DNA from: Thiobacillus denitrificans
GTDB lineage: Bacteria; Pseudomonadota; Gammaproteobacteria; Burkholderiales; Thiobacillaceae
Assembly (NCBI GenBank): GCA_020723405.1
Contig: DYIY01000007.1
Span: forward strand, 124,001-188,000
Reading direction: 5' to 3'
DNA: 64,000 nt
The stretch's first letter is position 1. Each line of letters starts with the position of its first letter. The notes below the pieces were generated by a model that did not search any database, had not been told where the DNA came from, and saw only the letters and a program-made list of their open reading frames with translations. The position numbers and the translations under genes were made by a program. This document shows positions 12,831-18,224 of this stretch, in pieces.

Positions 12831-13042
12831 GGGGATTGGCTGTTGGGTCTGCAGATCGACGAAGTCCACGCCATTATCAGCCACCGGCCAGGCAGCCAGG
12901 AAAACCATAAATAGATTGTTTTGCCTAGTTGTTTTCCTTAGATGCTATGAATGAAGTAGTCATGGACAGCGCATTCTTCATAGTGGTTGCATGTCCCCTT
13001 CATTGCGGTGCCGCGCTGCCCTCTCCACGCAAGGAGCGCATC

Positions 13043-13714
13043 ATGAAAGCGAAAAGACTGCTCACCGGCGCCGTGCTTGGCGCCCTGGCCCTGCTGGCCG
13101 CCACCGCAGCGTCCGCCACCGGCAACGCCCAGGCCGGATCGGCAAAATCCATGTTCTGCGCCGGCTGCCACGGCGTGGACGGCAACGTGGCCTACATCAG
13201 CGCCCGGCTGGCCGGGCAATCCACCCAGCGATTCCATGACGGGCTGCTGGCCTTCAAGGCCGGCCGGCGCTTCCACCCGGTGATGAACATCCTGTCGGTA
13301 GGCCTCACCGAACAGGATACCCAGGACATGGCCATGTTCTACGCCGGGCAAAAGCCCCTGGAATTGAAGGATGCCAGCCTGTTCTGGCGTCTGGGCGGCC
13401 ATGACGCCATCGGCGCAGCGGTGGATGAAACCATCAAGCTGTCCAGGGCCGACCCGCGTCTGGCCGGCCGTCTGTCGGGGGGCTGCGCGACCAAGCTCAA
13501 GGAACAGCTCTGCGCCGCCACCGGCGGACCCTGCAATTACACGGGCCGGGACATGAAGAGCGCCCACGCCGGCCTGGCCGTCACCGAGGCCGAGTTCGGC
13601 GCCGTGGGAGAGAACCTGGTGAAGGTGTTGGATGCCTTCAAGGTGCCGGACCGGGAGAAAAGCGAGTTGCTGGGGCTGATCATGCCCTTCAAGGGGCAGA
13701 TCGTCGGCCAGTGA
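13043..13714 (+). CDS. Secreted cytochrome c-truncated hemoglobin fusion protein
   Basis: A 223-residue two-domain haem protein. Residues 1-26 form a signal peptide ([25 protein letters not shown]). Residues 27-106 are a class I cytochrome c with covalent haem motif CAGCH (Cys39, Cys42, His43) and a likely axial Met81 ([11 protein letters not shown]). Residues about 112-223 match group 1 truncated hemoglobins: [17 protein letters not shown], then [19 protein letters not shown] with proximal His175, then [23 protein letters not shown]. The B9-B10 positions, usually Phe-Tyr, read Thr-Ile (130-131), and the E-helix start is about four residues short, so the distal pocket is unusual. A periplasmic electron-transfer partner fused to an O2/NO-binding globin suggests NO or O2 chemistry or sensing; that role is inference. 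ATG 13043 has AAGGAG at 13031-13036. Confidence 0.88.
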
Positions 13715-16813: not shown

Positions 16814-17101
16814 CTATTCAGATTTGTTCGGCCAGTTACGGGCGGTATGAATGACGGCAAAAACATCTATTGCGGCTTCCTTCACACGATAAGCCGCGTA
16901 GTAGGGAAGCCGAGGAATGACCATCTCACGCGTACCCTCCAGATGACCCCGACGTCCCATTTCCGGGTTGTCTCGCAGTTGTTCCACGCTATTTCGGATG
17001 GCCTGGATGACCCGTTTGGCCGCTTCCCGGTTGTCCTTGGCGATGTAGTCGCCAATCTCGGTCAGATGCGCAAGCGCGGCGGGGGTGTAGCGCACCCGCA
17101 T
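16814..17101 (-). CDS. ParE/RelE-superfamily toxin
   Basis: A 95-residue small basic protein with the RelE/ParE fold pattern: MRVRYTPAALAHLTEIGDYIA at the N-terminus, the central PEMGRRGHLEGTREMVIPRLPYYAAYRV, and the C-terminal VFAVIHTARNWP. The sequence is nearer to ParE (gyrase-poisoning) than to ribosome-dependent RelE, but the target cannot be proven. It starts three bases after the antitoxin stop, so the pair is translationally coupled with the antitoxin first, as in parDE. The pair runs against uvrA and lies between two copies of the uvrA 3' end. Local base composition is less GC-rich than the neighbours, which suggests acquisition. Confidence 0.88.
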   Translation of the reverse strand: MRVRYTPAALAHLTEIGDYIAKDNREAAKRVIQAIRNSVEQLRDNPEMGRRGHLEGTREMVIPRLPYYAAYRVKEAAIDVFAVIHTARNWPNKSE

Positions 17102-17104
17102 GGT

Positions 17105-17335
17105 TCAGTCGGCGTAACGCGCGAAGAAAGCTTCCATTTCTTCATCCGGGACAAATTCGCCCCTGTCCGCCTGAGCCAAACCCTCACGCAGCCGGGCGAT
17201 GGCCCAGCGTTCGTGGGTCAGATATGCGGCCAGCGCTTCGTTCAGCATGTCCGCTTCGCGCCTCTGAGTCTCGATCGCCAAGTCGTGGAGACCTGCGCGA
17301 ATCTCGGGGCGGATTTCCAGTGAGTCGGTTCGCAT
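17105..17335 (-). CDS. ParD/CopG-like antitoxin
   Basis: A 76-residue protein starting MRTDSLEIRPEIRAGL. The short beta-strand followed by two helices (EIRAGLHDLAIETQRREADMLNEALAAYL) fits a ribbon-helix-helix DNA-binding domain, and the acidic C-terminal tail (DRGEFVPDEEMEAFFARYAD) would wrap the toxin. ATG 17335 has GAGGAAC upstream and is preferred over the longer frame, which would run back into the uvrA repeat. As in other ParDE systems it should neutralise the toxin and repress its own promoter; a candidate -35/-10 (TTGTTC-N16-TATCAA) lies just upstream. Confidence 0.82.
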   Translation of the reverse strand: MRTDSLEIRPEIRAGLHDLAIETQRREADMLNEALAAYLTHERWAIARLREGLAQADRGEFVPDEEMEAFFARYAD

Positions 17336-17426
17336 ACCAAGTTCCTCATATTTGATAGGCGATGTTACCGCCAGAACAATGGCATCTGTAACCCAGATTA
17401 CCTGACCAACAAGATGACTAGCCAGC

Positions 17427-18224
<798 letters not shown>

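Follow-up and report, generated by a model that had tools for sequence, protein, structure and literature searches.

The locus at 13043–13714 of the window, the 64,000-nucleotide stretch of Thiobacillus denitrificans DNA analysed here, raises the question of what a small exported protein does with a cytochrome c and a truncated globin joined in one chain. A preliminary description of this DNA had proposed a 223-residue reading frame with an export signal, a c-type cytochrome with Cys39, Cys42, His43 and Met81, and a group 1 truncated globin with the proximal His175. The frame was confirmed and encodes 223 residues plus stop, running on the + strand from ATG 13043 to the end of the stop codon at 13714; the upstream sequence contains a probable ribosome-binding site, AAGGAG, at 13030–13036 (+). 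Residues 1 to ~25 (13043–13117, +) form a putative signal peptide with an inferred cleavage site, which appears as a low-confidence helix in the structure model and has its equal in all orthologues. The protein is therefore predicted to be exported by Sec and to be periplasmic.

The signal peptide is followed by a cytochrome c domain of the c4/c552 type (residues 26–101, 13118–13345, +), with the CxxCH motif at residues 39–43 (13157–13171, +) and the axial Met81 at 13283–13285 (+). A short interdomain linker (residues 102–111, 13346–13375, +), recognised from the model and the orthologue sequences, leads to the group 1 truncated globin domain (residues 112–223, 13376–13711, +), in which His175 (13565–13567, +) aligns with the proximal F8 haem ligand. 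Both domains were assigned from profiles, phmmer, the model and Foldseek. In Pfam, residues 113–220 matched Bac_globin (PF01152) with an E-value of 5.9e-7, above the curated cut-off, while residues 37–97 matched Cytochrom_C (PF00034) with an E-value of 0.0098, below the cut-off of that profile; no NCBIfam model matches the fusion protein. Despite the weak Cytochrom_C score, the identity of the cytochrome is secured by phmmer, AlphaFold2 and Foldseek together. Among PDB chains, phmmer related the N-terminal part to cytochromes c4/c552 (E 8e-11 to 1e-8) and the globin part to group 1 truncated haemoglobins (E 3.9e-15). The AlphaFold2 model of the fusion, built from 14 orthologues, had a mean pLDDT of 85 and a pTM of 0.78, with values >90 across most of both domains and low confidence only at the signal peptide. 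It shows a globin fold around His175, which Foldseek superposed on trHbN of S. benthica (8tls) with a TM of 0.89 and on that of M. tuberculosis with a TM of 0.80–0.81, whereas the cytochrome part matched 4o1w with a TM of 0.90. The two outcomes that would have spoken against the preliminary description, a missing globin hit and a missing globin fold around His175, thus did not occur. The haem-site residues Cys39, Cys42, His43, Met81 and His175 are unchanged in 14/14 orthologues, and the Gly-Gly motifs of the AB and EF turns (G118–G119 and G161–G162) are present and invariant as well. With a CxxCH motif and a distal Met in a class I fold, the N-terminal domain is a class I cytochrome c; the profile match above cut-off, the best structural match and the F8 His place the C-terminal domain among the group 1 truncated haemoglobins. 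Combined, it is almost certain that one chain holds two haem domains, a His/Met class I cytochrome c and a group 1 truncated globin, as originally described.

Of 23 genomes in the genus of the window, 12 gave a full-length orthologue by tblastn; two further genera of the same family contributed one genome each, for a total of 14 distinct sequences. A family profile retrieved no further full-length fusion outside the genus from 399 order-level, 369 class-level and 398 phylum-level genomes (~1,100 together; the samples partly overlap and are not exhaustive), and a plasmid collection of 72,556 records yielded only single globins, none spanning 80% of the query. The proposed architecture is thus real and conserved, but among the genomes searched it is restricted to 14 orthologues from one family. 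All 14 fusions cluster together in the globin tree (bootstrap 89, SH-aLRT 61), which is consistent with a single gene-fusion event. The dN/dS values between close pairs are ~0.07–0.24, alike in both domains, and the fusion is therefore no product of chance; it is a rare orthologous family under purifying selection. Two loci considered as possible precursors with adjacent separate genes were rejected: in G048 (L098) the globin is cytosolic and no cytochrome gene was detected beside the cross-stop match, and in G250 (L099) a cytochrome lies at the cross-stop match but no globin was detected.

The preliminary description had also placed the gene among PAS-based sensors. This holds for the window, but not beyond it. 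In the closest orthologous locus (L076), the fusion and uvrA come immediately after the MFS and SSB genes; the window has PAS-GGDEF-EAL, PAS-MCP and hydrolase genes between MFS/SSB and the fusion, and these are missing from L076. The other orthologues adjoin ruvC/yebC, restriction-modification or glycyl-tRNA synthetase genes. As these neighbours are not conserved, the PAS genes offer no clue to function, and a functional link to them was rejected. No conserved gene partner was found across the orthologue neighbourhoods, and the function of the fusion should therefore be self-contained. In the same region of the window, a partial duplication of uvrA around a toxin-antitoxin module was noticed at 16814–18224, downstream of the complete uvrA: a second copy of the uvrA 3′ end (17427–18224) follows the complete gene, and between the copies lie a ParE-type toxin gene (PF05016; 16814–17101, −) and an adjoining antitoxin-like frame (17105–17500, −).

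By sequence comparison, the fused globin is most closely related to exported single-domain group 1 globins, most of them lipoproteins. The remark in the preliminary description that truncated globins are usually cytosolic is therefore misleading in this case: single-domain forms with a signal peptide, in most cases one that includes a lipobox, are found widely among Gammaproteobacteria as defined by GTDB and also occur in Alphaproteobacteria, Bacteroidota and Acidobacteriota. The exported forms of Betaproteobacteria and other groups are 45–57% identical to the fused globin and share with it the signal peptide, a pair of cysteines and the lack of Tyr B10. In contrast to the fusion, they have no cytochrome domain, carry Leu or Phe instead of Cys at E7 and mostly keep Phe CD1. 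The globin alignment combined 14 fusions and the two solved trHbNs with 31 globins classed as exported and 11 classed as cytosolic; two of the latter (L091 and L042) were reassigned as lipoproteins from their N-termini, and the sample, collected with a fusion-globin profile, is biased towards kin of the fusion. After this reassignment, a Cys at E16 together with a Cys directly after Gly-Gly-Pro was present in 46 of 47 exported globins, fusions included, and in 0 of 9 cytosolic ones (uncorrected Fisher p 7e-8, with related sequences that are not independent). In the window protein these are Cys157 (13511–13513, +) and Cys164 (13532–13534, +), identified by alignment as the two halves of a predicted disulfide. 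This pair probably forms a disulfide with a structural role in the periplasmic globins, and it provides a simple sequence signature for the widespread exported group 1 globins (e.g., L031, L047, L089–L097).

The distal pocket sets the fusions apart from these relatives. E-helix positions were numbered by anchoring on the trHbN numbering and on Cys51 of S. benthica, which is E16 (PMC11904497). By this alignment, position E7, opposite His F8, is occupied by Cys in all 14 fusions but in 0/42 other globins compared; in the window protein it is Cys148 (13484–13486, +). Its placement in the distal pocket relies on the alignment and on the E helix predicted at residues 146–159. Every mature orthologue has exactly five cysteines (39, 42, 148, 157 and 164), namely two for the c haem, one at E7, one at E16 and one after Gly-Gly-Pro. 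Since the E16 and post-GGP cysteines are predicted to be paired as in the single-domain kin, we infer that Cys E7 carries a free thiol that points towards the globin iron. The preliminary description had mentioned neither the E7 Cys nor the predicted disulfide. The remaining pocket is non-polar: the fusions have Ile or Leu at B10, Leu or Ile at CD1, Leu at E11 and Leu at E15, with Ile, Leu, Leu and Leu, respectively, in the window protein. Instead of the classic trHbN combination of Tyr B10, Gln E11 and Phe CD1, the pocket thus contains Ile, Leu and Leu, and E14 Phe is replaced by Gln. Since the exported kin, too, deviate from the classic residues at B10 and E11, these substitutions limit the possible functions rather than the membership of group 1. 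The alignment bears out the earlier reading of B9-B10 as Thr-Ile and supports a distal pocket altered from that of classic globins. However, the loss of Tyr B10 is general to the exported group 1 subfamily and is no trait of the fusion, and the shortened segment before the E helix, although present, is a 4-residue deletion confined to the genus of the window and missing from the two outgroup fusions.

Among described proteins, the closest in kind are the lPHCtX proteins of cable bacteria (Kjeldsen 2019, via PMC11976967), in which periplasmic pentahaem cytochromes are fused to truncated haemoglobins, electron-linked O2 chemistry is proposed and the composition is called unique to cable bacteria. 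In broad terms the fusion belongs with these proteins, but its cytochrome type, size, phylum and E7 Cys set it apart. The lPHCtX proteins combine a five-haem cytochrome, an Ig-like domain and a globin at either end and belong to Desulfobulbaceae, whereas the betaproteobacterial protein has 223 residues, one c4/c552-type domain with a single CxxCH, no Ig domain and the E7 Cys. The trHbNs of M. tuberculosis and S. benthica (1IDR and 8UGZ) resemble the globin part in fold (TM 0.80–0.89) and proximal His, but they are cytosolic, single-domain proteins with Tyr B10/Gln E11 or Phe B10/Tyr CD1 and no E7 Cys. Cytochromes c4, c552 and c554 (4o1w, 1cno, 2zzs) share the fold and the His/Met class I haem site of the cytochrome part, but are mono- or dihaem proteins without a globin. 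Truncated haemoglobins of freshwater iron oxidisers are listed, with no mention of a fusion in the available part of that source (PMC3770913), and no description of a monohaem c4-type cytochrome–trHbN fusion or of a truncated globin with an E7 Cys was found in the open-access literature searched.

A His/Met-type cytochrome is expected to have a high potential; electron transfer would then be downhill if the globin haem reduced the c haem, or if the c haem reduced a ferryl globin. As a first choice, which we regard as possible rather than probable, we propose that the fusion is a stand-alone periplasmic two-haem oxidoreductase with Cys E7 at its globin haem, oxidising a sulfur compound or thiol. 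Such a self-contained enzyme would use the globin haem as its reaction centre, with Cys E7 as a reversible ligand or catalytic thiol; the globin haem would hand electrons to the c haem, which would exchange them one at a time with the soluble cytochrome c pool. It would work like the pairs of a Cys/His haem and an electron-relaying haem in periplasmic SoxAX and TsdA. In TsdA, a Cys/His haem lies beside an electron-relaying haem and a cysteine-bound intermediate is formed, and SoxA belongs to the same family (PMC4423706, PMC9562282). This likeness is a working analogy: all haems of TsdA and SoxAX are covalently bound c haems in cytochrome folds and not a b haem in a globin, these proteins are not homologous to the globin part, and the SoxA-TsdA cytochrome domain has no Pfam match in the fusion protein. 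Sulfur chemistry would fit the lifestyle of the genus, in which SoxA/TsdA-type cytochrome domains occur in 22 of 23 genomes. However, this near-universal co-occurrence is non-discriminating; as the domains are present with or without the fusion, they establish no tie between it and sulfur, and none of its neighbours was recognised as a sulfur gene. Further points against the sulfur reading are the loss of the otherwise conserved CD1 Phe, the putative nature of the globin haem and a pocket analysis based on alignment. The more specific proposal that a His(F8)/Cys(E7) globin hard-wired to a cytochrome c oxidises periplasmic sulfur species, and that one fusion and a gained E7 Cys thereby produced a globin-based functional counterpart of SoxAX/TsdA, appears unlikely to hold in full.

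Other chemistries would make use of the same two haems. A periplasmic peroxidase or O2-reducing protein, in which the c haem supplies the globin haem with electrons for the reduction of H2O2 or O2, would follow the model of dihaem cytochrome c peroxidases or of the multihaem cytochrome–truncated globin fusions of cable bacteria. Bacterial cytochrome c peroxidases combine a high-potential c haem with a low-potential five-coordinate haem, and the c haem plus five-coordinate haem of the fusion would resemble this layout. The cable-bacteria lPHCtX proteins are proposed to be periplasmic terminal oxidases (PMC11976967), and a trHbN in a terminal oxidase is suggested for Sideroxydans ES-1 (PMC3770913). 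The trHbN of S. benthica is reactive with peroxides, but this reactivity involves Tyr CD1 (PMC11904497), which is Leu in the fusion. Moreover, a distal acid-base residue is absent, and MauG/CCP-type peroxidases show no complementarity with the fusion, being present in 9/12 genomes with it and 9/11 without it. Taken together, we consider this route rather doubtful. The preliminary description had suggested NO detoxification, by dioxygenation or reduction, with the cytochrome as a built-in electron donor. M. tuberculosis trHbN is an NO dioxygenase (PMC3493545), but its O2-stabilising TyrB10-GlnE11 network is absent from the fusion. A cd1 nitrite reductase gene (nirS) occurs in 8/12 fusion-bearing genomes, which might suit a role in NO removal; however, it also occurs in 7/11 genomes without the fusion, and thus does not track it, and it is missing from the genome of the window itself. 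No FNR- or NsrR-type site was found in the 14 upstream regions, and the reduction of a ferric globin haem by a c4-type haem would be expected to run uphill. The missing O2 network and the untracked nirS weaken the classic NO-dioxygenase reading in particular, and NO detoxification as a whole is unlikely, even though two genomes have a cytochrome P460 gene in the vicinity of single-domain exported globins, a further point in its favour.

Readings without catalysis fare worse. The gas-binding globin fold and the PAS sensors nearby in the window could suggest a periplasmic gas or redox sensor, or a ligand carrier, but the protein has no transducer domain and no conserved partner gene, the PAS neighbours are found in the window only, and the attached cytochrome suggests turnover; this role is thus very improbable. 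The same holds for a globin domain that has ceased to bind haem and serves as a structural or interaction module of the cytochrome c. While the lost CD1 Phe, the segment before the E helix that is 4 residues shorter and the exchange of E14 Phe for Gln would agree with such a loss, the F8 His, the Gly-Gly motifs and the EF Tyr show little or no variation, and dN/dS of the globin is as low as that of the cytochrome. The invariant, fusion-only E7 Cys offers a direct mutational test of Cys-haem redox chemistry in a globin. Bacteria commonly have truncated globins, but the electron donors or acceptors of these haem proteins are seldom known; with the redox partner fused on, electron flow becomes measurable in one small soluble protein.

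Several observations concern other globins. Cytochrome P460 genes (PF16694) directly adjoin a single-domain exported truncated globin at L106:2533–3651 and lie ~1.6 kb from another at L108:524–1024. These two cases, each from a different family, hint that exported globins may take part in nitrogen-oxide or hydroxylamine chemistry. In the genome of the window (C35), a cytosolic group 1 globin gene at L002:1489–2085 is located between AlkB-like membrane hydroxylase and ferredoxin/reductase genes, as if it were part of an alkane hydroxylase operon. Finally, a Bacteroidetes genome contains two exported truncated globin genes in tandem (L011:5833–6913).
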